64,000 bases of DNA from Flavobacterium nackdongense (GTDB lineage Bacteria > Bacteroidota > Bacteroidia > Flavobacteriales > Flavobacteriaceae). Made by a program: the position numbers and the translations under genes. The stretch spans positions 3,720,001 through 3,784,000 of the forward strand of contig NZ_CP037933.1 in NCBI RefSeq assembly GCF_004355225.1, in the 5' to 3' direction. Shown in pieces: positions 21,007-55,950 of this stretch. The notes below the pieces were generated by a model. The model was not told the origin of the DNA. It searched no databases and saw nothing but the letters and a program-made list of their open reading frames with translations. Each line of letters begins with the position of its first letter. Within the stretch, counting starts at the first letter, position 1.

Positions 21007-21060
21007 TAACCGTAAATTCGCAGATTTTTAATCAATTGAAAATCTGCGAATCTGCGGTTA
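21007..21060. repeat. 22-bp intergenic hairpin at the island edge
   Basis: TAACCGTAAATTCGCAGATT (21007-) pairs with the arm ending in AATCTGCGGTTA (21039-21060), 20 of 22 positions over arms 21007-21028 and 21039-21060. A fragment of the right arm (AATCTGCGGTCATC) reappears at 55933-55946 beyond the other end of the island. The palindrome may therefore have marked the integration region or act as terminator of the lactonase gene. Confidence 0.6.
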
Positions 21061-21087
21061 TCAAATCATTTTTACTCCAAGTCCTAC

Positions 21088-24140: not shown

Positions 24141-26240
24141 ATGGTAACAGTCTTTAAAAACTTCAACGAGGTTGTAGAACACAAAACAATTTCAACAATT
24201 TTAGAAGAAATCAAAACAGGAAAGTACAGACCGGGGATCATTTACTTGCGTAAATCACTTGCCGAAAACAAAATAGAAGCCTACAATAAAGCCAAAAAAT
24301 CACTTCCAGCATTCACACCTTCGGGAAAGTTTGTTGGAGGACGAAAATTGGAATTCTTAGCAGAATATTCAAATTGCATCATTCTCGATATAGACAAATT
24401 AAGTGCTGCCGATTTGCAAAATGCAAAGCATTTGGCCAATCAAAGTGAATTCACTTATGCCAGTTTCATAAGTCCATCAGGTAACGGATTAAAAATTCTA
24501 GTTAAAATCAATTCAGACAAAGCCAATCACAAAGAAGCGTTTCTATTGATACAAGCACATTACGAGGCTATTTTAAAACTGGAAATTGACAAATCAGGCA
24601 AAGATGTAACTCGATTATGTTTTTATTCCTGGGATGAAAATTTATATCTAAACGAAAACGCTACCGTCTTTGAATGCGAACCGAAGCAATCTTGTCAAAC
24701 GGAGCTTGTCGAAGCTTCTCCAACCGACAACTCACAACCGACAACCGACAACACCGAAGCGATTTACAATCATTGCATAAAATTTACTGAAAAAAAAGTG
24801 CAATTCGTGAATGGTAGTCGCAACGTCTTTGTACATCAACTCGCCTGTAACCTAAACCGAAAAGGAGTTGCTTTAAACGAAGCTTTGGGGTATATTTTAA
24901 CCGATTTTGGATATGATGAAAAAGAAGTAACACAAGCTGTCAACAGTGCTTACGGAAATAGTCACGAGTTTGGCAAAAATGAAAAGTCCAAAATTGTCAT
25001 CCCGAGGAACGAGGGAACTCATCAACCTACACCTACTCCCGAAGACGAAGACGACGAAGACAAACCAAAACCAACCCAAATTGACCGTTTAGAGTTGTTT
25101 TTATCAAACAAATATGTATTTCGGCACAATATCGTTTCAGGCAAATTAGAGTTCCAATATTTCGGCAAAAAGAAATGGAATGTGATGAATGATTTTATAG
25201 AAAACTCAATGCTTAGGGAATGTTTAAAAGGTAGAATTAAAACAAACCTATCTTCATTACGAAATTTATTGTATTCTGATTTTTGTGTGCTGTTCAATCC
25301 ATTTGAAGATTACTTTTTCAATTTACCAACCTATGATGAAAAGACCGATTATATTAGCGAATTAGCGAATACAATAACTACCACAAAACAAGACCTTTGG
25401 CAGCAATGTTTTAAAAAATGGTTAGTTGCTATGGTGGGTTGTGTTCTCGATGATAAAGTAATAAATCATACAGTAATTGTCTTCAGTGGCAAACAAGGTT
25501 TAGGAAAAACAACGTGGGTGGAGAAACTCGTTCCGAAACCTTTAAAAGAATATCTATTTTCTGGAACCATAAACCCTAACAACAAAGATACTCTGGTGCA
25601 GCTTTCAGAATGTATGTTGATTAATTTGGACGAGCTCGAAAATTTAAACCGTTCTGAAATTGGATCACTCAAAGAAATCATAACAAAAACTCAAATCCGA
25701 ATGCGAAAAGCTTACGGACACAACAACGAAACAATGCCCCGAAGGGCATCGTTTGCCGGAAGTGTCAATACAGCACAGTTCTTGAACGATAGTACAGGTA
25801 GCAGAAGGTTTCTTTGTTTTGAATTAGAAGGCATCAAATACCAACACAATGTAGATATTAATATGGCATTTTCACAAGCATTGTTCCTTTTCAAAAGTGG
25901 TTTTAGATTTTGGTTCGACCAAGAAGAAATAAAATCCATCACCGAAAACAACGAACAATACCAGATACACAGCCCAGAAGAAGAATTATTATTAACCTGG
26001 TTTGAACCTTGTGATAGAGATATTGCCACATTATTTCTAAATGCCTCACAAATTGGGGCTAAATTAGCGGAGAAGGCAAAGATTAACTTAAATGATGGAA
26101 CAATAAACAAAATTGGAAAGGCACTGAAAAAACACAATTTCGTAAAACTAATGCGGAAAGGCAGTCCAGTGTATGCGTTAAGAGAGTTTTCCTATGAAGA
26201 AGTGGATGAAGCCAACAAAAAATCCGAAACACAAAAGTAA
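24141..26240 (+). CDS. VirE/VapE-type primase-helicase protein (BT4734-like N-domain)
   Basis: 699 residues. Residues ~1-180 resemble the BT4734/VirE N-terminal primase-like domain (SNCIILDIDKL, FISPSGNGLKILVKI). A linker follows (~185-300), then a VirE/VapE P-loop helicase with Walker A GKQGLGKTT (450-458), INLDELENL as Walker B and a GSRRFLCFEL arginine region. VapE-type proteins drive replication of phage satellites and related elements. The linker contains two stretches encoded by dispersed repeats (residues 185-193 and 285-292). It follows the Cys-rich peptide by three bases. Confidence 0.85.
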   Translation: MVTVFKNFNEVVEHKTISTILEEIKTGKYRPGIIYLRKSLAENKIEAYNKAKKSLPAFTPSGKFVGGRKLEFLAEYSNCIILDIDKLSAADLQNAKHLANQSEFTYASFISPSGNGLKILVKINSDKANHKEAFLLIQAHYEAILKLEIDKSGKDVTRLCFYSWDENLYLNENATVFECEPKQSCQTELVEASPTDNSQPTTDNTEAIYNHCIKFTEKKVQFVNGSRNVFVHQLACNLNRKGVALNEALGYILTDFGYDEKEVTQAVNSAYGNSHEFGKNEKSKIVIPRNEGTHQPTPTPEDEDDEDKPKPTQIDRLELFLSNKYVFRHNIVSGKLEFQYFGKKKWNVMNDFIENSMLRECLKGRIKTNLSSLRNLLYSDFCVLFNPFEDYFFNLPTYDEKTDYISELANTITTTKQDLWQQCFKKWLVAMVGCVLDDKVINHTVIVFSGKQGLGKTTWVEKLVPKPLKEYLFSGTINPNNKDTLVQLSECMLINLDELENLNRSEIGSLKEIITKTQIRMRKAYGHNNETMPRRASFAGSVNTAQFLNDSTGSRRFLCFELEGIKYQHNVDINMAFSQALFLFKSGFRFWFDQEEIKSITENNEQYQIHSPEEELLLTWFEPCDRDIATLFLNASQIGAKLAEKAKINLNDGTINKIGKALKKHNFVKLMRKGSPVYALREFSYEEVDEANKKSETQK
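24691..24720. repeat. GGAGCTTGTCGAAGC-type dispersed repeat within the primase gene
   Basis: The stretch GTCAAACGGAGCTTGTCGAA reads in frame as CQTELVEAS. This is a dispersed repeat type usually found between genes; a relative (TCCTGAGTTTTTCGAAGGA) occurs at 59186-59204. Confidence 0.5.
24993..25016. repeat. GTCATCCCGAGGAACGAGGG-type dispersed repeat within the primase gene
   Basis: Reads in frame as IVIPRNEG. It is related to the intergenic palindrome at 5688-5737. Both repeats fall in the same flexible linker. Confidence 0.5.
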
Positions 26241-26660: not shown

Positions 26661-29108
26661 ATGGCAATTAAAAAATCCGAATTATATAGCTCACTTTGGG
26701 CAAGTTGTGACAAGTTAAGAGGTTCTATGGAGCCAAGTCAATACAAAGATTATGTGTTGGTTTTATTGTTTGTAAAGTATGTTAGCGATAAATATTCAAA
26801 TGATCCAAACGCTTTAATATTTATTCCAGAAGGCGGTAGTTTCAAAGATATGCAAAGTCTGAAAGGACAAAAGGATATTGGAGAAAAAATGGATATGGCA
26901 ATTACCAAACTGGCTAAAGAAAATGATTTAGTTAACGTTATTGATGTAATTAGTTTTCAAGACGAAGAAAAGTTAGGTAAAGGAAAAGAAATGGTCGATA
27001 AGCTAACAGGGCTTATTACTATTTTCGAAAATCCTGCTTTAGATTTTAGCAAGAACAGAGCTGAAGGCGATGATATATTGGGTGATGCCTATGAATACCT
27101 GATGAGACACTTTGCTTCTGAAAGTGGGAAAAGCAAAGGCGAATTTTATACTCCTGCCGAAGTAAGCCGTGTTTTGGCAAAAGTAATCGAAGTAAACAAA
27201 GGAAATAAAGAAAAACAGACTGTTTATGACCCAACTTGTGGTTCAGGTTCCTTATTGCTAAAAGTAGCTGCCGAAGCTGATAATAAAGTTAATTTATACG
27301 GACAAGAAAAAGAAACGGCAAATGCTTCTTTGGCGCGTATGAATATGATTTTGCACAACAACCCGGAAGCAGTAATAGAAAAAGGACAAAGCACAATGTC
27401 CAATCCGTTGCATAAAAATGAATTGGGTGATTTAAAAACATTTGATTATATCGTTGCAAATCCACCTTTTTCATCTAAAAATTGGACTGATGGCTTTGAC
27501 CCAGCTAACGACATTTACAACCGTTTCGAAGAAGGAAAAATTCCACCAACCAAAAATGGAGATTATGCGTTTCTATTGCATATCGTAAAATCATTAAAAA
27601 GCACTGGTAAAGCAGCTTGTATTTTACCACACGGTGTTTTGTTTCGCGGTAATGTAGAAGCCGAAATTAGAAAAAGTCTAATTCAAAAAGGCTACATCAA
27701 AGGTATTATTGGCTTACCTGCCAATTTATTTTATGGTACTGGTATTCCGGCTTGTGTGATAGTCATTGATATGGAAAATGCTGAAAACACTAAAGACCTT
27801 ACTGATGATGAAAAAGGGATTTTTATGGTTGATGCCAGCAAAGGATTTCTTAAAGATGGTAACAAAAACCGTTTAAGAGAACAAGACATACATAAGATTA
27901 CCGATGTTTTCAACAAACATACTGAAATACCAAAGTTTAGTCGCTTGGTAAGTATTACTGAAATTAGCGACCCGAAAAACGATTTCAATCTAAATATTCC
28001 AAGATACATAGACATTCAAGAAGTAGAAGACATTCAAGACATCGAAGCGCATTTACTGGGTGGAATACCAAACGAGGACATCGACGCTTTAAAAAAATAC
28101 TGGGATGTCTATCCTTCGCTAAAAAAAGAATTGTTTGTTGCTAATAAACGACCTAACTACAGCGACCTGAAAATCGCCAAAGAAGATATCAAACAAACCA
28201 TTTTCAATCATCCAGAATTTGTGGCATTTAGTAAAGAAATGGACAAGCTGTTTAACGATTGGAAAACACAATACACTATTTTTCTAAAACAATTAACAGC
28301 TGGTATCAAACCAAAACAAGTAGTTCACACCATTTCAGAAGCCATCTTAACAGCTTACACCGGTAAAGCATTGATGGATAAATACGATGTATACCAACAC
28401 GTTATGAACTATTGGAACGAAACAATGCAGGATGATACCTATATCATTGCGGTTGATGGTTGGAAAGCAGAGCCGTATAGAATATTGGTTAAAAACAAAG
28501 CTGGTGTAGAAACCGATAAAGGTTGGGATTGCGACTTAGTTCCAAAAACACTAGTTATAGACCGTTATTTTTTACCAGAAAAAACAGCACTTCAAAAACT
28601 AGAAGCCGACAAAGAAGCTTTAGCTGCAACACAAACTGAGTTGGAAGAAGAACACGATACTGAAGAAGGCATTTTTTCTGACTTTGATAAAATCAACAAA
28701 GGAACAGTGCAAAAACGATTAAAAGCTATTGATACACCGAAACTAAAAGCAGAAAATGCCGAAGAAATTACGGTGCTAAAAACCTTTTTAAAATTGGTAG
28801 AGAATCAAGCGCTACTAACTAAAAAAATAAAAGAAGCTGCTGCCGAATTAGATAAAAAAGCATTAGCCAAATACAAAATACTAACCATTGATGAAATTAA
28901 ACAGTTGGTAGTTGAGGACAAATGGATGACTAGCATAGAAAAAAGTGTAAAATCTGAAATGGAACGTATCAGCCAACGCCTTACAGGACGAATAAAAGAA
29001 TTAGCTGAACTATACGAAACGCCTCTACCCAAACAGACCAAAGACGTTGCCGATTTAGAAAGCAAAGTAACTGCTCACCTTCAAAAAATGGGATTTGTAT
29101 GGAGTTAG
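26661..29108 (+). CDS. hsdM: Type I restriction-modification methyltransferase subunit HsdM
   Basis: 815 residues. The N-terminal HsdM helical domain (SLWASCDKLRGSMEPSQYKDYVL) is followed by an N6-adenine methyltransferase with SAM motif DPTCGSGSLLL (Asp190 on) and catalytic NPPF at 267-270, then a long C-terminal extension (~480-815) rich in charged helices. Classical HsdM is nearer 500-550 residues; the longer form is common in Bacteroidota. It modifies the host sites that HsdS selects and also supports cleavage by HsdR. It overlaps hsdS by 10 bases and heads a six-gene operon. Confidence 0.95.
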   Translation: MAIKKSELYSSLWASCDKLRGSMEPSQYKDYVLVLLFVKYVSDKYSNDPNALIFIPEGGSFKDMQSLKGQKDIGEKMDMAITKLAKENDLVNVIDVISFQDEEKLGKGKEMVDKLTGLITIFENPALDFSKNRAEGDDILGDAYEYLMRHFASESGKSKGEFYTPAEVSRVLAKVIEVNKGNKEKQTVYDPTCGSGSLLLKVAAEADNKVNLYGQEKETANASLARMNMILHNNPEAVIEKGQSTMSNPLHKNELGDLKTFDYIVANPPFSSKNWTDGFDPANDIYNRFEEGKIPPTKNGDYAFLLHIVKSLKSTGKAACILPHGVLFRGNVEAEIRKSLIQKGYIKGIIGLPANLFYGTGIPACVIVIDMENAENTKDLTDDEKGIFMVDASKGFLKDGNKNRLREQDIHKITDVFNKHTEIPKFSRLVSITEISDPKNDFNLNIPRYIDIQEVEDIQDIEAHLLGGIPNEDIDALKKYWDVYPSLKKELFVANKRPNYSDLKIAKEDIKQTIFNHPEFVAFSKEMDKLFNDWKTQYTIFLKQLTAGIKPKQVVHTISEAILTAYTGKALMDKYDVYQHVMNYWNETMQDDTYIIAVDGWKAEPYRILVKNKAGVETDKGWDCDLVPKTLVIDRYFLPEKTALQKLEADKEALAATQTELEEEHDTEEGIFSDFDKINKGTVQKRLKAIDTPKLKAENAEEITVLKTFLKLVENQALLTKKIKEAAAELDKKALAKYKILTIDEIKQLVVEDKWMTSIEKSVKSEMERISQRLTGRIKELAELYETPLPKQTKDVADLESKVTAHLQKMGFVWS

Positions 29109-30358
29109 TAAACAGTAATTTAAAAAAAACTGAATTGGGTTTAATTCCTCAAGATTGGTCAATTTATACAGTCAGAGATTTAATAGAATTATTAACAGAC
29201 TACGATGCAAATGGCAGTTTTTCATCAGTAGCTGAAAATGTAAAGTCATATGATTATGAAGAATATGCCTGGTATGTTAGATCAACTGACCTAGAGAACA
29301 ATTCAAGTATGAATAAAGTCAAATATGTAGATAAATCATCTTATAATTTTTTAAAAAAAACAGCATTGTATGGAGGTGAATTACTTTTTTTAAAGAGAGG
29401 TGATATTGGAAATGTCTACCTATTTGAAATGAAAACAGAAAAAGCTACTGTTGCTCCTAATTTATATTTATTGAAATTAAATAAAATCACGGACTCTAAA
29501 TACTTGTATTATTATTTTACATCAAATATAGGCCAACTTCAATTAAAAAGTAAAAATGCAAGTTCTACTTTAGGAGCATTATATAAAGATGATGTGAAAT
29601 CAATTTTTGTTCCACTTCCTCCAACATTAGAAGAACAAACCGCCATAGCCAATGCCTTATCCGATGCAGATAATTTAATAAAAGGTTTAGAAAAAGTCAT
29701 TGCAAAAAAACGCAATATCAAGCAAGGAGCAATGCAAAAACTATTGCAGCCTAAAGAAAAATGGGAAGTAAAATCGTTTAAGGATTTATGTTGGTTTCAA
29801 GAAGGTCCGGGACTAAGAAATTGGCAATTTACTAAAAGAGGGATAAAAGTTATTAATGTAACGAATTTAGAAAATGGATTATTAAATTTAGACAGGACTG
29901 ATAGACACATTTCGTTAGATGAATTCCATAAAATGTATGAACATTTTGAAATTGATGAAAATGATATTGTTGTAGCAAGTTCTGGTAATAGTTATGGAAA
30001 AGTAGCAGTTGTAAGAAAACAAGATTTACCATTGCTTATGAACACCAGTGTAATTAGGTTTAAACCATTGAGTAATTTAGATTATAATTTTTTATTAATC
30101 TATTTAAAGTCTTCTCAATTTAAAAATCAAATTGACCTTTTAATAACAGGCGGTGCACAACCAAATTTTGGACCTGTACATTTAAATCAGATTACAATAA
30201 ATATGCCTCCAACAAAAGAAGAACAAACAAAAATAGCATCTGTTCTTTTAGATATGGATAATGAAATACTTGCATTAGAAACAAAATTGGAGAAATATAA
30301 AAGTATTAAACAAGGAATGATGCAGAACCTTTTAACAGGTAAAATTAGATTAGTATGA
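29099..30358 (+). CDS. hsdS: Type I restriction specificity subunit HsdS
   Basis: 419 residues with two target-recognition domains (~8-180 and ~215-385). Each is followed by the conserved spacer helix pattern: PPTLEEQTAIANALSDADNLI then KKRNIKQGAMQKLL, and PPTKEEQTKIASVLLDMDNEI then KSIKQGMMQNLLTGKIRL. It chooses the bipartite DNA target for HsdM and HsdR. Each recognition domain can be exchanged between strains, so the target cannot be predicted. It overlaps hsdM by 10 bases and mcrB by four (ATGA). Confidence 0.95.
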   Translation: MELVNSNLKKTELGLIPQDWSIYTVRDLIELLTDYDANGSFSSVAENVKSYDYEEYAWYVRSTDLENNSSMNKVKYVDKSSYNFLKKTALYGGELLFLKRGDIGNVYLFEMKTEKATVAPNLYLLKLNKITDSKYLYYYFTSNIGQLQLKSKNASSTLGALYKDDVKSIFVPLPPTLEEQTAIANALSDADNLIKGLEKVIAKKRNIKQGAMQKLLQPKEKWEVKSFKDLCWFQEGPGLRNWQFTKRGIKVINVTNLENGLLNLDRTDRHISLDEFHKMYEHFEIDENDIVVASSGNSYGKVAVVRKQDLPLLMNTSVIRFKPLSNLDYNFLLIYLKSSQFKNQIDLLITGGAQPNFGPVHLNQITINMPPTKEEQTKIASVLLDMDNEILALETKLEKYKSIKQGMMQNLLTGKIRLV

Positions 30359-32142
30359 AACAACACCACGCCGAAGATATTTATCAATTTTATGATAAAT
30401 TCATACAAGATTTTTTAATTGATGGAAATAGTATTTTAAGTGCTCATACGGGTATTCTAAATGATGATACCATCAAAGGATGTTTCTTTAATTATATCGA
30501 AAATTACAATGATACCAATGGTAGTTTTGATGCTAAAGTAACTGATCAATTTAAAAATGCTGATTTACCTACTCGATTGGTTTTTGCACACGCAGAATGG
30601 TTATGGTCTTTTGCTGTTGATGATATAAGAATTCCAACAAAAAAAGGATATGTAAAAAGAATTACTAATCTATCCGAAGAAGAATTAGTAGATACTATTT
30701 ATCCTGTTGGTTTTGGTAGTGCAGGACAATGGCATACAAACAATAAATATGAGGAAATTAAATTCATTTTAATTCTAATTCGTTTTATAAGACAAAAAAT
30801 TGTTCTTGGAGAAATTACAACAGTTCAGGAAGCTAAAGACTGGATAGAATATATATGCTTGTTCCAAAAATACGGTACAGAAAACACAACCTATATTTTA
30901 CCAGATACGTTTAAAGCTGAATTACAGGAAAAAAGTTTAGCCGTAACCAATATTCTTACGTATGCTGGTAATCCTGATAATTATGAAAGAATAGCTTCTG
31001 AAAATCACAAAAATCAAATCCTTATTTCATTTTGGGGTTTATTATCCGAAGCACAAAAAGTTGATGAAAGTCTAAATACTGATGATAAAATTCTATTAAT
31101 CAGAAAAGAACTGGGAGCATTAACGCATCCTAATTTTGATTTTTATGAATTTGACTATGCTAGGATTTGGAATTATTCATTAACAGAAGAAGGATTTTCG
31201 GAAGTTCAAGGCTTGCAATACAAAAAAGCAATAATATTATATGGTCCTCCGGGAACAAGCAAAACATTTACAGCAAAGCACTTGGCTGATGCTTTAATTA
31301 CCTATGCTTATCTCAAAAATAAAGCAAATGTCACTACCTTTTTCAGAGATAAACCAGATGTAACCACAAATAGAATTCACCATCTACAATTACATCCTAA
31401 TTATACCTATGAAGATTTTATTGCTGGTTATCAATTAAAAGACGGAAATACCCAAAAAACACCAGGTACACTTTTTAAGATTTGTGAGAAAGCAAAAGCC
31501 GATTTAGGTGTTACACCAAACGACGATATGCCACACGTATTAATTCTTGATGAAATCAACAGAATTGATTTATCAAGATTATTTGGAGAAGTATTCTCAG
31601 CTCTAGAAAATAGAGACCAACCTATACAAGTTGGTGTTGGAGATTTAGAACTTACAATTCCAAGAAATCTATATGTTATTGGTACAATGAATGAAATTGA
31701 TTTTTCATTAGAAAGAATAGATTTTGCTTTACGCAGAAGATTTTTATGGTTTTTCTATGGTTATGATGAAAATACATTGAGAAACATCATTCACCATAAA
31801 AACAGAACCTTAGGTGCTAACTTAAGAATGGAAGACGAAATGAATAGATTTATAAGAAACGCTACGCAACTTAACCGCAAAATTTCTTCAATACCAGAGC
31901 TAGGGAAACAATACCAAATAGGTCATACTTTTTTTGCTGAAATTGTGGAGATTTACAAAAGTTACAAAGAAATTGGAGGTTATAAATCGCTAAAATATCA
32001 GTTATATAGAGGTGATGGTGCTACTAATATTTTATGGAAAATTTCATTAGAACCAATGTTAGTTTCTTTCCTAGGCAATATGGAATTAGAAGTTCAAAAT
32101 GAAATATTAAAAGAGTTAAAAGTCATTTACAATCAAAATTAG
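30355..32142 (+). CDS. mcrB: McrB-like AAA+ GTPase
   Basis: 595 residues. The C-terminal half is an AAA_5/McrB motor: Walker A GPPGTSKT (297-304), Walker B LILDEINR (Asp399, Glu400) and the McrB-type MNEID (445-449, matching the MNxxD GTP-specificity signature), then DFALRRRFLW. The first ~290 residues would recognise the modified or foreign DNA; I cannot assign them to DUF3578 or another known reader. McrB rings translocate DNA with GTP and activate McrC. It starts within the hsdS stop (ATGA), so it is translated from the restriction operon. Confidence 0.9.
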   Translation: MKQHHAEDIYQFYDKFIQDFLIDGNSILSAHTGILNDDTIKGCFFNYIENYNDTNGSFDAKVTDQFKNADLPTRLVFAHAEWLWSFAVDDIRIPTKKGYVKRITNLSEEELVDTIYPVGFGSAGQWHTNNKYEEIKFILILIRFIRQKIVLGEITTVQEAKDWIEYICLFQKYGTENTTYILPDTFKAELQEKSLAVTNILTYAGNPDNYERIASENHKNQILISFWGLLSEAQKVDESLNTDDKILLIRKELGALTHPNFDFYEFDYARIWNYSLTEEGFSEVQGLQYKKAIILYGPPGTSKTFTAKHLADALITYAYLKNKANVTTFFRDKPDVTTNRIHHLQLHPNYTYEDFIAGYQLKDGNTQKTPGTLFKICEKAKADLGVTPNDDMPHVLILDEINRIDLSRLFGEVFSALENRDQPIQVGVGDLELTIPRNLYVIGTMNEIDFSLERIDFALRRRFLWFFYGYDENTLRNIIHHKNRTLGANLRMEDEMNRFIRNATQLNRKISSIPELGKQYQIGHTFFAEIVEIYKSYKEIGGYKSLKYQLYRGDGATNILWKISLEPMLVSFLGNMELEVQNEILKELKVIYNQN

Positions 32143-32144
32143 TT

Positions 32145-33464
32145 GTGAGTTTAGAAACCATCATATTAGAAGCTAACGATTGTTGTTCCTTTAAAAATCA
32201 GGAAGGACACAGCGAAGCAATTCAATATTTTATATCTAAAAAAAACAATCTAAATATTTTCAATTTTGGTAAAAAGGATAAAAATGAGGATGAAGAAATA
32301 GCTTATTTTAATTATCGTGATGCCAAATGGTATGCTGGAAGATTTATTGGCGAAGCAGTTTTTGAGTTTAACAATTTAAAATATAAAATTACCATCAATC
32401 CCAGATTTGGGAATACGCAACTTTTTAGGATGCTGGAAGAAGTGTATAATATCAGACTTCCACATTCAAACAACAATTTAGAAAAGCAAAAAGAATACCA
32501 GTATCTCATAAAAAAATTAATTTCTTTTTTGTGGTTAAATCTTTTATCTAAAGCCAATAAACACGGAATTCCTAAAAACAACAGCATCAAGTTTCAAAAA
32601 GGAGCTACTATAATAGGAAAATTAGACATCAGAAAATCTATTTTGCCAATTTACACCGAAGAAAAAATCATCAGTAAGTACCACGAGAAAACACCTAATA
32701 AAATAATTACCAGCATTTTAAAAAATGCGCATAGAATGTTGAAATCAGAGTATCATTTAACAAATGAAATGATATCAATGAGTTCTAAAAATGCCATAGA
32801 GCAACTATACACAACAAAAATAGATAGCGGCTATATCTCTGAAAACGATTATAATAAAATACAGTATCGAGATATTTATTTATCATATAAACCAATTGTA
32901 GATTTATCTTGGGATATAATTAAAAAAAAGAATTTTGGTAATAGTGAAGATAAAAACAAACAGGGATTAAGTTTTTTTTTAGATGTTGCTGAAATATGGG
33001 AAATGTATTTAAGGGCAATTTTAAAAAGGCGTTTCTTAAAAGACGGATGGATAATTAGAAATGATAAAATTACAACCTATAAAAACAATGATTTTAGCAG
33101 AACTCTAATACCTGATATTGTTTTAGAAAGAGGAAATGATGTAATGGTTTGGGATGCAAAATACAAACGAATGGAATTTGTTTATTTTGACTATGATCGA
33201 GCAGACTTTTTTCAAATACACACTTATATTACTTATTTTAAGCAAAATAAAAATGTTGTGGCTGGTGGTTTGTTATATCCTTTTTCAAAGGAGTTTGATA
33301 GTTATAGACAAGAACGAAACAAAGCAAATAGTTTATATGCTGAAGAAAAAAACAACATTCAATTTGTAGTTGACGGAATAGATTATTCCAATTTAACAGA
33401 TGAAAAAATTAGTACTGAAGAAGTAAATTTTCTTGATAGAATTTCCGCAATAATAAACCGATAG
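32145..33464 (+). CDS. mcrC: McrC-like endonuclease subunit
   Basis: 439 residues from a GTG two bases after the mcrB stop. The N-terminal beta-rich McrC region (AKWYAGRFIGEAVFEFNNLKY, INPRFGNTQLFRMLEEV) connects to McrB. The C-terminal PD-(D/E)xK nuclease shows LIPDIVL (Asp324) and VWDAKYK (Asp337, Lys339). With McrB it should cleave DNA carrying a modification recognised by the McrB N-domain. Here it sits between the type I subunits, four bases before hsdR. Confidence 0.9.
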   Translation: MSLETIILEANDCCSFKNQEGHSEAIQYFISKKNNLNIFNFGKKDKNEDEEIAYFNYRDAKWYAGRFIGEAVFEFNNLKYKITINPRFGNTQLFRMLEEVYNIRLPHSNNNLEKQKEYQYLIKKLISFLWLNLLSKANKHGIPKNNSIKFQKGATIIGKLDIRKSILPIYTEEKIISKYHEKTPNKIITSILKNAHRMLKSEYHLTNEMISMSSKNAIEQLYTTKIDSGYISENDYNKIQYRDIYLSYKPIVDLSWDIIKKKNFGNSEDKNKQGLSFFLDVAEIWEMYLRAILKRRFLKDGWIIRNDKITTYKNNDFSRTLIPDIVLERGNDVMVWDAKYKRMEFVYFDYDRADFFQIHTYITYFKQNKNVVAGGLLYPFSKEFDSYRQERNKANSLYAEEKNNIQFVVDGIDYSNLTDEKISTEEVNFLDRISAIINR

Positions 33465-33468
33465 ACCA

Positions 33469-36400
33469 ATGAGTAAAGTAGGACAAATAGAAAGAGCAAC
33501 ACAAAACCGTATTGTGAAATGGTTTCAAGATACTTTGAAATACGATTATTTAGGTAATTGGGAAGAAAGAGAGGGCAACAGCAATATCGAAGAAGACGAA
33601 TTGCGTAAATACCTGCAAGGCACTAAAAAGTATAGTGAGGAGCTGATTAACAAAGCAATATTTGCTTTGAAAAAAGAAGCTACAATAAATTCTAACGACG
33701 ACCTTTTTACAGCTAATAAAGAAGTCTATTCCTTATTGCGTTACGGTACTTCCAAAAAAGTAGAAGCCATCAAACGACCAGAACACGTTGATTTTATTGA
33801 TTGGGAAAATCCATTAAATAATAATTTTGCTATCGCCGAAGAAGTAACGATTAGAGGAGCTAAAGAACGCAGGCCCGATATTGTAATCTACATCAATGGG
33901 ATAGCTCTAGGTGTTTTAGAATTAAAGAAAGCAAGTGTTTCGGCAAGTGAAGGAATTAGACAAAACTTAAGCAACCAACTGCATTTATTCAATAAGTCAT
34001 TTTTTACAACCATACAATTTGTATTAGCCGGGAATGACAGTAATGGTTTGTATTATGGTACAACCAAAACAGAAGAAAAATATTTCCTAAAATGGAAAGA
34101 AGATAACGATGTCTATGATCCTAATGTTATTCTATTAGACAAGCACATCGAACAGTTTTGTAACAGAGAACGATTGCTAGAAATAGTTCACGATTTTGTA
34201 ATATTCGACCACGGAACAAAAAAACTGTGTCGTCCAAATCAATATTTTGGTATAAAAGAAGCACAAAAATATATCGCAAGAAAAGAAGGCGGTATTATTT
34301 GGCATACACAAGGTAGTGGCAAAAGTTTAACAATGGTTTGGTTGGCAAAATGGATTTTAGAAAACAATCCGAAAGCTAGATTATTAATCGTTACAGACCG
34401 AACAGATTTAGATGAACAAATTGAAGGCGTATTTCTTGGAGTTGGTGAAACCATTACAAGAACTAAAAGTGGTGCCGATTTAATTTCAAGACTTAACAAT
34501 ACTTCACCAAGACTGCTTTGCAGTCTGGTTCATAAGTTTGGTGGTAAAGAAGACAATGCTGCCAATGAATTTATTGAAGAACTAAAAATTTCAAAAGATT
34601 TTCAACCCAAAGGAGATTTTATTGTTTTTATAGATGAGTGCCACAGAACTCAAAGTGGAGAGCTACACAGTGCTATGAAAACTATTTTGCCTGATAATTC
34701 CATTTTTATTGGTTTTACGGGTACACCTTTATTGAAAAAAGACAAGAAAAAAAGTTTAGAAATTTTTGGTAGATACATTCATTCATACAAATTTGACGAA
34801 GCAGTTAGAGATGGAGTAGTGTTAGATTTATTATACGAAGCTCGTGATGTGGACCAACACGTTTTTGACCAAAAAGGTATTGATGAATGGTTTGCAATTG
34901 TAACGCACGGTATGAATGATATTCCTAAAGCGGAACTCAAGCAAAAATGGGGTACGATGCAAAAGGTGTTAAGTACTAAAACACGTTTAGAAAAAATAGT
35001 TTTCGATATCAAAAAGGATTTCATTACAAAACCAAGGTTAAAAGATGGTAGAGGGAATGCAATTTTGGTAGCTAGAAGTATCTATGAAGCTTGTCGTTAT
35101 TACGAGATTTTCCAATCCTTCGGAATAAAAAAATGCGGTATAATTACCAGTTTTGAACCTAATGAAAACAGCATAAAAATAGAAGAAACAGGAGCTGGCG
35201 AAACCGAAAAGAAAGAGCAGTTTGAAATCTACCAAAAAATGCTCAAAGATTATGATTTCAAAGATGCAGAAAGCTTTGAGAAATTTGCTAAAAAGAAATT
35301 CAAGGAAGAACCTGCAAATATGCAATTGCTTATCGTTGTAGATAAGCTGCTAACTGGTTTTGATGCAATACATTGTACCTATTTGTATATCGACAAACAA
35401 ATGCAAGACCACGGTTTGTTTCAGGCAATTTGTAGAACAAATAGATTAGGCAAAGAAGAAGAAAACGATCCATATTACAAAGAGTTTGGATATATAGTTG
35501 ATTATAAAAACCTATTAGAAAACTTAAATAAATCCATTTCAGATTACACATCAGATGCTTTTGATGAATATGATATTGATGATGTGAAAGGATTACTTAC
35601 CGACAGATTAGAAAAAGCAAAAGAACGTTTGGAAGATGCTATTGAAGCATTACACCAATTGTGCTTAGACATTCCAGCACCAAAACAATTAGAACAGTAT
35701 TACCACTATTTCTGCGGTGACCCAACAAACAAAGACGACTTAAAAGACAACGAACAAAAACGTTTGACTTTATATAAATTGGTAGTGGCTTTAATTAGAG
35801 CATATAATAACATTGCTTCAGAAATAATTGAAGCGGGTTACACTCAAGTAGAAGCCGATAAAATCAAAGACAAAGTAAACTACTACGCAGAATTAAGAAA
35901 CAGTATCAAACACTATTCTTCTGATTATATCGATTTGAAGAAGTATGAACCAGATATGCGCCAAATGTTGGATATGTATTTAACAGCAGATCCAAGTCGT
36001 GTATTATCTAATTTAGGAGAAGCAACACTTTTACAATTGATAGTTGATAATGGTATTGAAGAAGCAACTGATAAACTTCCTAGTAGTATTAAAGGAAACA
36101 GAGGTGCAATGAGTGAAACTATTGAAAACAATATGCGAAAAACAATCATTCAGGAAATGCCAATCAACCCGGCATATTATGAAAAAATGAGTGTTTTGTT
36201 GGTAGAGTTAATCCGATTGAGAAAAGAAGGAGCGATATCGTATGAAGAGCTGTTAAAAGAATATGAAGAATTAGCACGAAGCATTCAACCTAATACGAAG
36301 AAAACCTATCCAGCCACTATTGATACAAAACCAAAACAAGCATTATATGACAATTTGGATAAAAACGAAGAACTGGCAAACGAATTAGACCAGCAAATTA

Positions 36401-36552
36401 GAGACACAAAAGATGATGATTGGCGAAGTACACACATCAAAAGAAGAAAAGTAGAAATAGCAATTAGACAAGTATTGGAAAGCAATGGCATTAATGATGA
36501 ATTGATGTTAAGTAAAGTATTTGATATAGTTTCTAATCAAAGAGAATATTAA
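33469..36552 (+). CDS. hsdR: Type I restriction endonuclease subunit HsdR
   Basis: 1027 residues. N-terminal PD-(D/E)xK nuclease with RRPDIVIYINGIALGVLELKK (Asp137, Glu151, Lys153). SF2 translocase follows with Walker A GSGKS (282-286), FIDECH (Asp389-His392), FTGTPLL and late QAICRTNRLGK; helical C-terminal part binds the methylase core. It translocates and cuts unmodified DNA. Length and order fit HsdR of the EcoR124-type. It follows mcrC by four bases and precedes the metallopeptidase by one. Confidence 0.95.
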   Translation: MSKVGQIERATQNRIVKWFQDTLKYDYLGNWEEREGNSNIEEDELRKYLQGTKKYSEELINKAIFALKKEATINSNDDLFTANKEVYSLLRYGTSKKVEAIKRPEHVDFIDWENPLNNNFAIAEEVTIRGAKERRPDIVIYINGIALGVLELKKASVSASEGIRQNLSNQLHLFNKSFFTTIQFVLAGNDSNGLYYGTTKTEEKYFLKWKEDNDVYDPNVILLDKHIEQFCNRERLLEIVHDFVIFDHGTKKLCRPNQYFGIKEAQKYIARKEGGIIWHTQGSGKSLTMVWLAKWILENNPKARLLIVTDRTDLDEQIEGVFLGVGETITRTKSGADLISRLNNTSPRLLCSLVHKFGGKEDNAANEFIEELKISKDFQPKGDFIVFIDECHRTQSGELHSAMKTILPDNSIFIGFTGTPLLKKDKKKSLEIFGRYIHSYKFDEAVRDGVVLDLLYEARDVDQHVFDQKGIDEWFAIVTHGMNDIPKAELKQKWGTMQKVLSTKTRLEKIVFDIKKDFITKPRLKDGRGNAILVARSIYEACRYYEIFQSFGIKKCGIITSFEPNENSIKIEETGAGETEKKEQFEIYQKMLKDYDFKDAESFEKFAKKKFKEEPANMQLLIVVDKLLTGFDAIHCTYLYIDKQMQDHGLFQAICRTNRLGKEEENDPYYKEFGYIVDYKNLLENLNKSISDYTSDAFDEYDIDDVKGLLTDRLEKAKERLEDAIEALHQLCLDIPAPKQLEQYYHYFCGDPTNKDDLKDNEQKRLTLYKLVVALIRAYNNIASEIIEAGYTQVEADKIKDKVNYYAELRNSIKHYSSDYIDLKKYEPDMRQMLDMYLTADPSRVLSNLGEATLLQLIVDNGIEEATDKLPSSIKGNRGAMSETIENNMRKTIIQEMPINPAYYEKMSVLLVELIRLRKEGAISYEELLKEYEELARSIQPNTKKTYPATIDTKPKQALYDNLDKNEELANELDQQIRDTKDDDWRSTHIKRRKVEIAIRQVLESNGINDELMLSKVFDIVSNQREY

Positions 36553-50273: not shown

Positions 50274-51338
50274 ATGACACCAGAACAACTAAAATTAGCA
50301 CAACAACTTGCAGAACTAGGCGATGTTACCATTGTAAAAAGGGGCACATCAAGTCTTATTAAAGCTATTTCAGCAATGAATAGCGAAGCACTTGAATTAA
50401 TTTTAGAAGATAATGTTAGTTATCAAGATACTACCAAAACAATTTTCCTTCAAAAACTGAAAGAAGTTTTCAAGGATTTCCAAAAAGAAGACAATAAACT
50501 TATTCCTTATGAGGGTAAATGTAATTCCGGTGAATGTACCAATAAAAATAAAAAAGGTATAGCCTTTGTTGGAAATAAATCAAATCGTTATATTAATTTC
50601 ATTATTGAAGAAAAAGAAGACGGCACAGTAAAGGACATATACACTTGTTCGGTTTTTTGCACTAATGAGAATGTTATCAATGAAAATAAAAGAAAACTTG
50701 ATATTACGGTTTATAATGATGAAAAGGTAAATTTTAAACCTTCATCTTCATATAACTATTTAAAAAATAAATCAATCACTGCTCTGAATGAAATAAAGCA
50801 ACTCAATGACTGTGAAATTTCAAAAGATGAAATAATTACTTGGATTAAAAGCTATGAAGAATTATACAATTCTATGAATTGGATAAATAATTTTTACAAA
50901 CATCATTATTCGTTTTACTGGCTTTATTATCATATCAATGAAATTTATAAATTCTTAATAATTGAAAATGAAGCTAAAATAGCGATTGATGAATTTAAAT
51001 CTATTAATCTTGATAACGAAATAGATTTATTAAAATGGTTAGTAAAGTATGAACATTTATATTACGAATTGATATTATTATGTGCTAATATAGTCACTGA
51101 AGAAAGCTTGCAAACTGGAAATTCTCTTTTACACAAAGACTATACTGTTTACTTCAAAACAAACATTTTACAAAACTGCATTGATTTACAAGAACTTATT
51201 GATAACCACTACAACGAAAAATTGAATAAATACAATACACTAACTCAGGAAGAACAAGAAAATCAGATACCTTTTGATGATGATTACGAAAATACTTCAT
51301 CCTTAAAATACCACTTAGAAAAAAGGGGCATTATCTAA
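50274..51338 (+). CDS. Cys-rich protein of unknown function (354 aa)
   Basis: The N-terminal helix (TPEQLKLAQQLAELG) is followed by a compact segment with four cysteines, GKCNSGECTN and then DIYTCSVFCTN (~82-132), spaced like a zinc-binding treble clef or ribbon. A long helical C-terminal half follows (~150-330), rich in Tyr, Trp and Leu. It starts 78 bases after the coiled-coil gene and closes the cargo operon. Family not recognised. Right after it the gene-free hairpin region begins. Confidence 0.65.
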   Translation: MTPEQLKLAQQLAELGDVTIVKRGTSSLIKAISAMNSEALELILEDNVSYQDTTKTIFLQKLKEVFKDFQKEDNKLIPYEGKCNSGECTNKNKKGIAFVGNKSNRYINFIIEEKEDGTVKDIYTCSVFCTNENVINENKRKLDITVYNDEKVNFKPSSSYNYLKNKSITALNEIKQLNDCEISKDEIITWIKSYEELYNSMNWINNFYKHHYSFYWLYYHINEIYKFLIIENEAKIAIDEFKSINLDNEIDLLKWLVKYEHLYYELILLCANIVTEESLQTGNSLLHKDYTVYFKTNILQNCIDLQELIDNHYNEKLNKYNTLTQEEQENQIPFDDDYENTSSLKYHLEKRGII

Positions 51339-51886
51339 TCATTATCTCATTCAGCTGCACAAAACTTTCATTTAGTCCAAGTATTCCCAAACTCAAGTCT
51401 TTGTTTGCTTCATTTCGCTAATTACTTTTCCAATAACGAGAATATCTTTTTTCGTTCAGTGGTAAATAGGAAGTTTTACATTTCAGTAATCACTCCTTTG
51501 CCAACGCTCCAAAAAAAATTACTGGCACAGTTTTTATCAAAAACACGTACGCTTCGCAACTTGCGCCAGTAATTTTTTTCCCCAAGCTGTGTTACATAAT
51601 TGAGTATTATAGTTCATTACAAAGCTTTTATATTGTTTTTTTGGTTTTTGCAATGAAGCTATAATATCATTTATGTAAAACAGCCGCCACACCCAACGCG
51701 CAAGACAGTGGCTCCAGGACAGTCTTTTTAATTGCTTCCTCGCACCGGCCTGCAATAAAAAAGACCATCCTTCGCCACTGTCATTAACAACGTTCGCCAT
51801 TTCATAAGAATGTTTACGGAACTACCTAATTTCAAGAACGTTCACGGTCACTGTTTTTAGCAACTTGATGTTTAAATCGGTAAGTA

Positions 51887-52185
51887 TTTGCATTGTTTTT
51901 GTGCGTGTCTCAAATTGCTTATCAACTCTATTTCTAACATTCACGACATAGGAATAAGCAATTTGAGACACCCACAAAATCAAAAGAAGCCAGCAAGAGT
52001 GTGGTTTTTTATTTGCTAGAAAACCCGAAGTAATTGCTTCAGCGGAAAAGCCGATGCCATACCGTTCCTAAATATAAAGTTGACCAGCCCGAAGCATTGT
52101 CTTTCTTTCAAGTCTTTGGCATCGACTTTTCCACAAAAGCAATCAGAAACACCCCAGTAAGCAAATAAAAAACCACACACTTGCC
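51887..52185. repeat. Hairpin unit 1 (two hairpins with conserved junctions)
   Basis: CATTGTTTTTGTG leads into a perfect 18-bp stem (51905-51922/51954-51971). The joint CCCACAAAATCAA (51971-51983), then GAGTGTGG and a perfect 19-bp stem with layered inner stems follow, closed by CCACACACTTGCC. The junction words recur in unit 2. Confidence 0.65.
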
Positions 52186-52216
52186 TGCGCTACTGCCCCA
52201 TCGCACTAGGTATTAT

Positions 52217-52405
52217 TTTTTCATTGTTTTTGTAAGTATTGAAAATCACTTGAAACTTTCGCATTATAATAGAAAAACCTCCGTAAAGTGATTTTCAATA
52301 CCCACAAAATCAAGTCCAAGAAAGAGTATGGATTTTTAAAACAGAAAAATAATAGGAATGGATTTTATATTTCTTTTTTCTGTTTTGAAAATCCACACAC
52401 TTTCC
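52217..52405. repeat. Hairpin unit 2 (same junctions, different stems)
   Basis: CATTGTTTTTGT leads into a perfect 16-bp stem (52236-52251/52286-52301). The joint CCCACAAAATCAA (52301-52313), then GAGTATGG and a 24-bp stem with two mismatches follow, closed by CCACACACTTTCC. The stem sequences are unrelated to those in unit 1. Confidence 0.65.
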
Positions 52406-52819
52406 GAAAACCATCCTCTTCCAAATCAACTCCCATTCCTTCAAAAAACTTCCGATTATACGATGACGATTGGTAAATGAAATCAAAACAAAAAATAAAA
52501 AAAAAGAAGGCAAAGGTAAGTTCCAGGTTTACAAAAAAGCAAGTTCGAGCCTCCGGTTTTTGATAAAATCTCCACCCATAACGGTTCGCAACAACATTCA
52601 ATTCCGACTTCACGCCCACACTCCCGATGATGTATCGGGTAGTATTTTATCAAAAAAACTTGCTTTTTTGAAACCTTCCACTTGAACGAATGGCTTTCTT
52701 TTTTTTCCTTTTTTTTCTTTTGAAAAATTTAATGGGCGGAGCGTAGCGAAGCACATTGGTCTTTCAACCGAAACCCTGCGGAAAATTGAAAATCTAACCC
52801 ATTTTTAAAGCCGAATGTT

Positions 52820-53242
52820 ATGCTAAATTTCATCATCAAGACCCACCGAAAAGACACCGTTTACACAAAACCCCATTTATTTGTACTTAACAAGGGGATG
52901 AACAGCGGAAAGCCACAAAAAACGCCATTTACTAACAGTTTTGTTATCATTTTTCAAAACGAAGAGGACTGCGAAAGCCTTTTTTTCATCGCATATAGTT
53001 TATGGCAAACAAAATTCTGGCATCAGTATTTAGTAGGTTCGGTTATTTCGTTTTTGCGTCTTCCAGATTTCAAAAAACAATTCAATCCACAAGCCAGTTT
53101 GATGATGATGGAGCACGAGCAGCACCAAAAAAATGTTGCAGCTCTCAAACTTCTGGAGAAAAAAGAAAAGCAATACAAAGAGGATATGATGCTTATAAAT
53201 GACATCCGCAGAGCCATTTTATACCGTTATTGTAGAAAATAA
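52820..53242 (+). CDS. DUF6943-like small protein of Bacteroidota mobile elements
   Basis: 140 residues. FIIKTHRKDTVYTKPHLFVL, then NKGMNSGKPQKTPFTNSF and an aromatic helix (FFIAYSLWQTKFWHQYLVGSVISFLRLPDF) with a charged end. I recall similar proteins, labelled DUF6943, on integrated elements of this phylum. The function is unknown. It follows the hairpin region, and a hairpin at 53244 directly follows its stop. Confidence 0.6.
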   Translation: MLNFIIKTHRKDTVYTKPHLFVLNKGMNSGKPQKTPFTNSFVIIFQNEEDCESLFFIAYSLWQTKFWHQYLVGSVISFLRLPDFKKQFNPQASLMMMEHEQHQKNVAALKLLEKKEKQYKEDMMLINDIRRAILYRYCRK

Positions 53243-53427: not shown

Positions 53428-53670
53428 TTAAGGGTTTGTTATTGGCTCTTCTTCCGATTTTACAGCAGTTTGAGAAACTACTGAAATAATACTTCCGCCC
53501 AGAACCAAATAACCAGCTGCACTCACCAAGCCAACTGGCAAAGCAACCGGGGAAGCTATGATAATTCCGCCAACGGATGCCAAGGCAATCCCAACTGTTC
53601 GAAGAACTTTAAACCATTTTGGAGTTGGTGCCAAAACTCTTTCTGCCAAATTCATTTTATTATTTTTCAT
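53428..53670 (-). CDS. Small two-helix membrane protein, holin-like
   Basis: 80 residues. A basic N-terminus (MKNNKMNLAERVLAPTPKWFKVL) precedes two hydrophobic helices (~24-45 and ~47-66) and an acidic tail. Its size and place next to another small membrane protein and the DUF5675-like gene resemble holin genes in lysis cassettes. It overlaps the upstream gene by 11 bases. No sequence family is recognised, so the lysis role is inferred. Confidence 0.5.
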   Translation of the reverse strand: MKNNKMNLAERVLAPTPKWFKVLRTVGIALASVGGIIIASPVALPVGLVSAAGYLVLGGSIISVVSQTAVKSEEEPITNP

Positions 53671-53923
53671 AATCTTGATTTTTAAAAATTGATAATTCTA
53701 AATTGTGTACTCTTTTTTCGATGTATTCTACTTTTTGGTTAAGTAAATCATTCCCGCTTTTGAACTCGGTTTTGATGATTAAAGCCATCGTTTTTACTTC
53801 AATCAAATCTTTCTCCATACTCTTGAAATCAGTGTGTAATTGCTTGATAAAATAAGCCACAACCGAGAGTAACAAGGTGATCAGTGTTCCAAAAAGTGCT
53901 GCTATGGCATTAATATTTTCCAT
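53660..53923 (-). CDS. Small membrane-anchored coiled-coil protein
   Basis: 87 residues. An N-terminal membrane helix (AIAALFGTLITLLLSVVAYFI) is followed by a charged coiled coil (~35-82). The layout fits a phage spanin- or holin-accessory-like protein. It starts 12 bases after the DUF5675-like stop and overlaps the next gene by 11 bases, so the three genes form one operon. Confidence 0.5.
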   Translation of the reverse strand: MENINAIAALFGTLITLLLSVVAYFIKQLHTDFKSMEKDLIEVKTMALIIKTEFKSGNDLLNQKVEYIEKRVHNLELSIFKNQDYEK

Positions 53924-53935
53924 TGGATTTGCTTT

Positions 53936-54388
53936 TTAAAATTGAAAATTATTTTCAATGGTAAATTTGTTAGAAGGATCCTTTGCCAATGCAACCAACT
54001 TGGGATAAATCATTTTGTAAGCTGCTATACTTTGGGTAACTTGAAAATCGCCTTCAGCAAATTGGAAACCAAAACCACAAAGCGGACAACCGGCAGTATC
54101 TTTTATAGTATTTCCGACGTGGATATAGACAAAACTGAAATTCGGTAATCCCGAAATCTCAATCATTCCCTGGTGTAGGTTTCCAAAAGCTCTCTTGTAA
54201 TCCGCATTTTTTGCTCCCCAAGTGTTGAGTTTTAATTCAAAAACACCTGTAGGAATGGCAGTTTGTGAAGCAATCTTCACTTCCCTGATTTTATCTTCTA
54301 ACAAATAACATTGGAAAATCCCGTTGATATACAACTGGCTCAATGTACTTTGTTTGCCTTGGGCGACCCTGATTATTTTATTTTCCAT
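53936..54388 (-). CDS. DUF5675-family protein
   Basis: 150 residues from the ATG at 54388; a 20-residue upstream extension would run into the terminator at 54412. Features seen are GKQSTLSQLYINGIFQCYLLED, IPTGVFELKL, GMIEISGLPNFSFVYIHVGN and AGCPLCGFGF. I associate this pattern with DUF5675, found next to phage-type small membrane genes in Bacteroidota and suspected of peptidoglycan-related action, though unproven. It opens a three-gene minus-strand operon. Confidence 0.7.
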   Translation of the reverse strand: MENKIIRVAQGKQSTLSQLYINGIFQCYLLEDKIREVKIASQTAIPTGVFELKLNTWGAKNADYKRAFGNLHQGMIEISGLPNFSFVYIHVGNTIKDTAGCPLCGFGFQFAEGDFQVTQSIAAYKMIYPKLVALAKDPSNKFTIENNFQF

Positions 54389-54411
54389 TGTTTTTGTTTT
54401 AAGGAGTTGAT

Positions 54412-54441
54412 AAAAAAAATCCCTCGTTTTTGGCGAGGGAT
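54412..54441 (-). terminator. Strong terminator behind the 267-aa gene
   Basis: ATCCCTCG (54419-54426) pairs with CGAGGGAT (54434-54441). On the minus strand a T-run follows (54412-54418). It separates the 267-aa gene from the DUF5675-like operon. Confidence 0.8.
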
Positions 54442-54456
54442 CCTTCAAGGGTTTTT

Positions 54457-55260
54457 CTAGAAAGCGTCCTCGACTTTCAAGCAGTTCCCACTGGAGAACA
54501 AGTAATAGTTTCCACCTACTTGTTGGTAGAACTCAATTCCGATGCACTGCAAAACGGTTGTGTTTACCGTTGGAACTGCTCCATTAGGTAAAGTTGCAAC
54601 AATTGTTGTAGCAGGAACTGGAGCGTACAAATCCAAAAAGTCACTGTATTGAATATCGCTTATCTCATTCAAAGCTGCATCCATAGGATCATAGCTGTTT
54701 GTGGTAGCGTTATATTCAAAATCACTCACTACTGAAAGAGAGCTAATCAAACGGAAGTGTGTGGCACCAGATGGAGCACTCACCAAATTAGCTGGGTTAA
54801 AATCAGCAACTACAAACTCTCCGCTTTCTCTACCAACTGTATGAGTTAATGAGTAAGGAGCATTGAAAATGCCATTGAAAGAAGAGTTTTTGTCAAACTC
54901 GAAACCTTTCAAGTAATTACGTTGGGTACTGATTTCAATTTTTCTGTAACCCCTAGCTTCAGTTTGGTCTTCCAAGTTGATTTTCTTCATAATTGAAGTT
55001 AATCTTCCTGTAACTTGACTGTCGGCCATTTGTTTCATCACCTGAGATAAGCCAGTTCGAACCGCTTTCCCAGCTTTGGCACAAGCGCCAAATTCATTCA
55101 TATTCTCACGAGTTCTCTCGAACTCTGGTGCAGTGTTTACCTGATCACCACTAGGACCGCCAACCATTCCGGCGAAGTAACCTTCTTGTCCTTTAATTTT
55201 GAAGTGTCGGATATCTCCAAGAGTTCCGACATACTTAATAACACCTTTCTGTCTTGCCAT
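54457..55260 (-). CDS. Conserved-type 267-aa protein of unknown function, possibly structural
   Basis: The start MARQKGVIKYVGTLGDIRHF and the stretch FERTRENMNEFGACAKAGKAVRTGL match a type of protein I have seen repeatedly in Bacteroidota elements without a known role. The C-terminal part is rich in Val, Thr and aromatic residues (~150-267) and likely beta-structured. It has no signal peptide, its own promoter region shared with the divergent nuclease gene, and a strong terminator. That suits a highly expressed product such as a virion or particle protein, but this is inference. Confidence 0.6.
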   Translation of the reverse strand: MARQKGVIKYVGTLGDIRHFKIKGQEGYFAGMVGGPSGDQVNTAPEFERTRENMNEFGACAKAGKAVRTGLSQVMKQMADSQVTGRLTSIMKKINLEDQTEARGYRKIEISTQRNYLKGFEFDKNSSFNGIFNAPYSLTHTVGRESGEFVVADFNPANLVSAPSGATHFRLISSLSVVSDFEYNATTNSYDPMDAALNEISDIQYSDFLDLYAPVPATTIVATLPNGAVPTVNTTVLQCIGIEFYQQVGGNYYLFSSGNCLKVEDAF

Positions 55261-55885: not shown

Positions 55886-55950
55886 CATCTTTAACCCCTG
55901 AAAACACTACCCCTTACAGGCGTAAGGATGTTAATCTGCGGTCATCTTTT

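Follow-up and report, generated by a model that had tools for sequence, protein, structure and literature searches.

A very large conserved folded element beside DUF6943 genes in integrative elements of Flavobacterium: a probable giant non-coding RNA

The island and its host element

The window, that is, the whole 64,000-nucleotide stretch of Flavobacterium nackdongense DNA that was analysed, contains a gene-free island at 51336-52820; the end of a cargo gene (51338) lies at its left edge, and the gene for a DUF6943 protein starts at its right edge (52820). The island lies in a presumed 35-kb integrative element that includes the following genes.

21297..22514, plus strand: tyrosine integrase of the presumed element (PF00589, Arm-DNA-bind_5)
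24141..26240, plus strand: VapE-like primase-helicase (PF05272, PF08800)
26661..36552, plus strand: cargo, a type I restriction-modification system (HsdM, HsdS, HsdR) with AAA and McrBC-component genes between
52820..53242, plus strand: DUF6943 protein of 140 aa, the divergent neighbour (PF22105, E 8.3e-56)
53428..53670, minus strand: 80-aa hydrophobic module protein
53660..53923, minus strand: 87-aa hydrophobic module protein
53936..54448, minus strand: DUF5675 protein (PF18925, E 2.8e-26)
54457..55260, minus strand: 267-aa protein, similar to 252-aa module proteins of loci L021 and L022
55325..55849, plus strand: SNase-like nuclease, right end of the module (PF00565, E 3.5e-10)

The cargo also includes a 1580-aa protein (37314-42056) that gave no PADLOC match and a 1492-aa protein (44864-49342) with DpdF/RecQ-like helicase parts. 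The 267-aa module protein gave neither a family match nor a clear fold match.

The 140-aa neighbour of the island scores 188.2 bits against the DUF6943 family PF22105, for which the curated cut-off is 27, and in the Pfam scan this was its only family above cut-off, with no Methylase_S match. The protein is predicted to resemble half of an HsdS specificity subunit, with one target-recognition-like domain and a long helix. It differs from HsdS half-subunits in its size, in the lack of a Methylase_S match and in its linkage to a structured island.

The module of relatives has a 67-aa gene after it, and in 44 of 68 tails (some places being counted twice) CCTCTTTCTCCGC lies 172-248 nt beyond that gene. 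The exact sequence ATCCCTCTTTCTCCGC occurs once in this genome, as the 3' end of tRNA-Ser(TGA), and therefore many such elements sit at tRNA-Ser 3' ends. The right ends of L021 and L022 and L286 1499-1586 are among the cases in which the module ends at the tRNA-Ser(TGA) 3' end, and a few other tails appear by eye to end at other tRNA-like sequences. The right end in the window differs from the tRNA-Ser type, and the ends of this element are putative. A near-identical 14-nt sequence, AATCTGCGGTyATC, is present at both ends of the presumed element (21049-21062 and 55933-55946), as are GTTGTAC repeats; both are possible attachment sites.

Anatomy and conservation of the fold

An earlier note on this DNA had read eight long hairpins at 51512..52676, several of them with perfect stems of 16-19 bp. 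An inverted-repeat search of 51000-53200 gave 20 inverted repeats and placed the main arms where they had been read, at 51512/51562, 51893/51954, 51993/52160, 52224/52286, 52320/52375, 52529/52657 and 52557/52644; the arms are 13-30 nt long and 89-100% complementary. Perfect stems of 16-19 bp can be true at most of inner runs: the sole perfect pair among the main repeats is 52557/52644, with arms of 13 nt, and the others are mismatched when extended. There is an extra perfect 12-nt pair, 52370/53157, spanning 775 nt, and two hairpins beyond the inverted-repeat list, 51586-51684 and 51704-51782, emerge from the comparative fold. The region is indeed gene-free, as the note had it, since no ORF of conserved length runs through 46 islands; their longest ATG ORFs are spread over bins from 30 to 150 aa.

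Read along the minus strand from DUF6943, the order is H8, B2, A2, B1, A1, H3, H2, H1 and then LE.

52484..52722, minus strand: H8, layered inverted repeat adjoining DUF6943 (four helices of 10-24 bp, 94-97% of cells paired)
52540..52542, minus strand: candidate -33 element TTG (TTG-N21-TACCTTTG is exact in the window)
52511..52518, minus strand: candidate -7 element TACCTTTG (TAnnTTTG), from the promoter-pattern search
51512..52508, minus strand: putative giant RNA of about 1.0 kb (promoter pattern, terminator-like H1, fold z-score)
52320..52404, minus strand: B2, short form of unit B (inverted repeat and comparative fold)
52223..52313, minus strand: A2 (inverted repeat and comparative fold; match to model R2 at 52221-52315, E 2.6e-12)
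51990..52187, minus strand: B1, stacked helices (45 pairs in 3 helices, 96.4% of cells paired)
51893..51983, minus strand: A1 (inverted repeat and comparative fold; R2 match, E 4.7e-14)
51704..51782, minus strand: H3 (22+6 pairs, 99% and 95% of cells paired)
51586..51684, minus strand: H2, the part found across Bacteroidia families (comparative fold and matches to model R1)
51512..51579, minus strand: H1, A-run/T-run stem, terminator-like 3' end (inverted repeat and comparative fold)
51336..51425, plus strand: LE, sharp left boundary of the conserved unit (locus comparison; repeated between cargo genes elsewhere)

A and B together form a unit of about 330 nt. When 47 loci were searched with R2 (E <= 0.001; the E-values of R1 and R2 are rough), two A hairpins were found opposite the DUF6943 strand in 38 and one in six (L175, L177, L195, L196, L198 and L203); L022 has three, L021 has six, and L186 consists of two islands with two each. 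Most R2 loci also match on the other strand with lower scores, as hairpins do. H8 is upstream of DUF6943 in the compared loci.

The hairpins of the island are far from chance. Both strands were folded over 51512-52508 (997 nt), giving -350.5 kcal/mol for the minus strand and -285.1 kcal/mol for the plus strand; 60 dinucleotide shuffles of the minus strand gave -235.0 +/- 9.5, so that z = -12.1. The whole 1487-nt island folds at -382 (plus) and -465 (minus), compared with -218 to -347 on either strand for 13 control stretches of 1487 nt elsewhere in the window.

Conservation of the fold was examined in an alignment that began with 78 islands, from which 23 without a detected H1, nine near-identical ones and then L021, because of its extra units, were dropped to leave 45 non-redundant islands. 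The consensus has 292 pairs in 20 helices of at least four pairs, with 93% of cells paired, and 87 of the 292 pairs show double changes. Covariation was scored with an R-scape-like script, which used a G-test with average product correction, a FastTree tree, Fitch reconstruction and 20 null alignments in which substitutions were reshuffled per branch. The covarying pairs that the earlier note had proposed to look for in homologous islands are present: 31 of the 292 reach E < 0.05, 10 of them with E < 0.001. The 31 fall in half of the 20 helices, and nine of these 10 helices hold at least two. Only four of 860,016 column pairs exceed every null score, and all four are in the structure. H3 contributes 6+3 significantly covarying pairs, A1 has double changes in 13 of 27 pairs and B1 has 16 pairs changed on both sides. 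The B hairpin has 118 double-changed cells against 36.8 expected, a number reached in none of 500 shuffles, and its covariation score is above those of all 500 shuffles and all slid versions. The island is thus a real, conserved and very large folded element, and the expectation of a structured region of more than 1 kb in a mobile element is borne out in its homologues. Large regions with extensive covarying secondary structure, as found here, are what is looked for in giant ornate RNAs.

The mismatches left within stems show which strand folds. In 72 islands linked to DUF6943 (80 named loci less eight with fewer than 600 nt upstream), folded without G.U pairs, the plus strand has 934 A.C mismatches vs 153 G.T; because these are mostly plus-strand A.C, which is minus-strand G.U, the minus strand is the folding strand. 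It is also the more stable strand in 72 of 72. A set of 24 islands, partly the same loci, gave 335 A.C and 43 G.T, and a strand-neutral consensus built without G.U has 305 G.U vs 96 A.C on the minus strand. Composition (G 0.145 vs C 0.211 on the plus strand) alone predicts a ratio of about 1.6, and the 13 control stretches gave 62 A.C vs 34 G.T, with the minus strand better in eight. The bias is absent in L182, L185 and L194 (G.T:A.C of 5:5, 4:3 and 3:4). In Flavobacterium the functional single strand is therefore the minus strand, although counts of G.U against A.C cannot firmly tell an RNA from single-stranded DNA.

In the five islands linked to DUF6943 that come from other genera or families (L270, L271 and L277-L279), the minus strand is again the better folder in every case. 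Mismatches are few in L277, L278 and L279 (A.C 9, 7 and 8 vs G.T 3, 1 and 0), and L270 and L271, from two other families, show no bias (0:0 and 2:2). Seven R1 matches without DUF6943 fold better on the minus side in six cases and equally in one. Four phage-like contigs from IMG/VR (L207, L210, L212 and L226) encode a DUF6943 relative, and the 1.3 kb upstream of it folds clearly better on the minus strand.

Copies, relatives and boundary sequences

The same genome has further copies, L021 (2.7 kb, with its six A hairpins) and L022, and partial copies L023-L025. An insertion element carrying two transposase ORFs (L022 5160-6460) breaks the L022 copy in two, and in a fragment at L024 4358-4683 H2 is absent between H1 and an H3-like sequence, which would fit a loss of this hairpin.

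Some DNA match occurs in 59 of 101 genomes of the genus, many of them weak. At E <= 1e-4, R1 matches 32 of the 101 and the DUF6943 gene is present in 32; 26 have both, six and six have one alone and 63 have neither (p = 5e-13, with kinship ignored). Wider searches (E <= 0.001, rough E-values) gave R1 matches in 57 of 299 genomes of the family and 16 of 395 of the class, and 15 of 37 R1 loci, with that of the window excluded, show DUF6943 within 1.5 kb on each side. DUF6943 relatives are encoded in 486 stretches, of which 80 named loci were kept, mostly from Flavobacterium, Flavobacteriaceae and Bacteroidetes bins and also from Mariniflexile and Confluentibacter. Loci L148 and L150 belong to a culturable carrier, Flavobacterium aquatile LMG 4008. 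A Comamonas-binned contig with DUF6943 (L169) is probably contamination. The island recurs upstream of DUF6943 in many Flavobacterium genomes and, in shorter form, in other genera of the family (L277-L279) and in two other Bacteroidia families (L270 and L271), with R1 on the opposite strand in all five.

At the left, the conserved unit begins sharply at LE, and the DNA upstream of this boundary is unrelated between loci. There are 53 LE matches when partial ones are counted, and 36 of them come after the stop codon of an ORF that is 80 codons or longer, a count made without a chance control. Copies of LE, with or without H1 and part of H2, lie between cargo genes in L025, L063, L067, L282 and L283, and the right-hand break points of such solo copies vary, falling in H1, the H2 left arm or the H2 right arm. 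LE recurs there in one orientation, like a cassette boundary (L063 10745-13087, L067 2166-15795, L025 3494-4371, L282 and L283). By eye, LE holds a small hairpin in which the TCCAAGTATTC loop is conserved while the arms vary.

R1 matches were also found in other Bacteroidia families with no DUF6943 within the stretches examined. There the H2-H1 motif is near a pair of tyrosine recombinase genes in L272, L275, L276 and L280 and near a single one in L273; a CHC2-type primase was confirmed in three of these five (L272, L275 and L276).

RNA or folded DNA strand

The candidate promoter sits in the distal arm of H8. The pattern TTG-N17..23-TAnnTTTG, which we take to be of the Bacteroidetes type, has an exact minus-strand match in 29 of 75 loci, with 2.3% expected in shuffles, and an exact plus-strand match in none of the 75. 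Loci with one mismatch (16/75) or two (27/75) show no excess over shuffles (29% and 50%), so the exact class is the only one above chance; in three of the 75 the pattern was not found at all. The signal is tempered by the relatedness of the loci and by the position of the motif inside a conserved hairpin arm. Beyond the genus, three of the five DUF6943-linked islands (L270, L271 and L277) have an exact TAnnTTTG, followed by a T-rich stretch, 231-275 nt before the DUF6943 start. The L021 box reads TACCTTTA and is not an exact match. Together with H1, which looks like an intrinsic terminator and carries T-runs on both strands, the candidate promoter brackets about 1.0 kb on the minus strand.

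We think it probable that the island encodes a giant structured non-coding RNA of integrative elements, previously undescribed, which probably acts with DUF6943. Transcription of the minus strand, divergent from the DUF6943 gene, would start near 52508 at the promoter inside H8 and end at H1, giving an RNA of about 1.0 kb. Such an RNA would be made of fixed 3' domains (H3, H2 and H1) and a tandem A-B unit, usually with two A hairpins, and may fold into a modular scaffold; in an integrative element whose cargo varies, it would be a part that stays constant. A ribonucleoprotein of the RNA with DUF6943 could then act in the life cycle of the element. The G.U bias extends to H8 (184 vs 14 cells), part of which lies upstream of the proposed start site, and this start does not account for it.

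The main rival is that the minus-strand hairpins are a folded single-stranded DNA substrate, recognised by tyrosine recombinases and serving the insertion of cargo cassettes. The attC sites of integrons, in which the bottom strand folds, and the att hairpin of CTX-type phages are folded single strands that tyrosine recombinases recognise. The island is like them in its bottom-strand folding, in cassette-like cargo with a repeated boundary, LE, often right after a cargo gene, and in the recombinases nearby in some families. H2, read by eye, also has a pair of inverted boxes (TTACATAAT / ATTATAG); its spacer is asymmetric and its tip varies. The DNA reading stays alive because the H2-H1 motif is near tyrosine recombinases in other families. 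However, the island differs from these sites in having about eight large hairpins over more than 1 kb; one hairpin would be enough for recombination, yet about 290 pairs are kept. The right break points of solo copies vary instead of falling at one site, and in the window the integrase is about 29 kb away, with none inside the island. The conserved promoter pattern and terminator-like end, which attC and att hairpins do not share, favour RNA over DNA, and in our judgement the evidence of LE and the recombinases weighs less than the promoter and a conserved fold of such extent. The RNA reading is somewhat weakened, and the DNA substrate gains, because L270 and L271 lack mismatch bias and only the exact promoter class beats shuffles. 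Even so, we regard the DNA substrate as somewhat unlikely. A broader scheme, which we consider doubtful, is a cassette-capture system of a new kind in Bacteroidia: an RNA or a folded bottom strand in which H2-H1 and LE would mark where cargo (defence genes, for instance) is inserted, the partners being tyrosine recombinases and, as an adaptor, DUF6943.

It is quite improbable that the inverted repeats work as duplex or cruciform DNA, such as operators bound by a dimeric DUF6943. The predicted resemblance of DUF6943 to half a type I specificity subunit, a DNA-binding fold, and the position of H8 between two divergent units would suit such a role, but double-stranded sites predict no strand bias, contrary to the 934 A.C vs 153 G.T counted, and a sequence-specific site would not allow the arms to vary while pairing is kept. 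A leader or read-through RNA of the plus strand, acting like an attenuator on the cargo or DUF6943 mRNA, would fit the island being directly upstream of DUF6943 on that strand and the T-runs of H1 on both strands; it is more improbable still, since the plus strand folds worse in all 72 islands and has no promoter pattern. Ordinary terminators or decayed REP-like repeats, suggested by hairpins with T-runs and raised as unrelated decayed repeats in the earlier note, are refuted by significant covariation and by an order and spacing of units that are fixed in many species.

To our knowledge, few bacterial RNA classes of the size and complexity of the putative giant RNA have been described. Membership of GOLLD or ROOL, of which the earlier note was reminded, did not hold up. 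No Rfam 15 family matched anywhere in the window at gathering score, and the 47 matches over 51300-52850 at E <= 5, all below gathering score, were mostly microRNA hairpin families and included neither GOLLD nor ROOL; membership of either was rejected. The island is not GOLLD or ROOL but is the same sort of object, since in both cases a structured region of very large size lies in a mobile element. It is unlike them in its occurrence in Bacteroidia, its tandem A-B units and its linkage to the gene of an HsdS-half-like protein. According to PMC12286853, phages and prophages carry GOLLD and ROOL, which often lie close to tRNA islands; what GOLLD, ROOL and OLE do is called still poorly understood there, and homo-oligomeric RNA-only complexes are described for all three; the association of many island elements with tRNA-Ser 3' ends is a further likeness. 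The available parts of PMC9723704, PMC2864571 and PMC11109978 hold no mention of the element. If the RNA reading is true, this is a further class of giant RNA, one that Rfam 15 lacks, and the fold predicted for its linked protein can be interpreted. The role of a giant mobile-element RNA would become directly testable, as there are many loci to compare, culturable Flavobacterium has several copies per genome and the repeat numbers form a natural series; in L021, if the same start and end places are taken, the RNA would be about 2.2 kb long.
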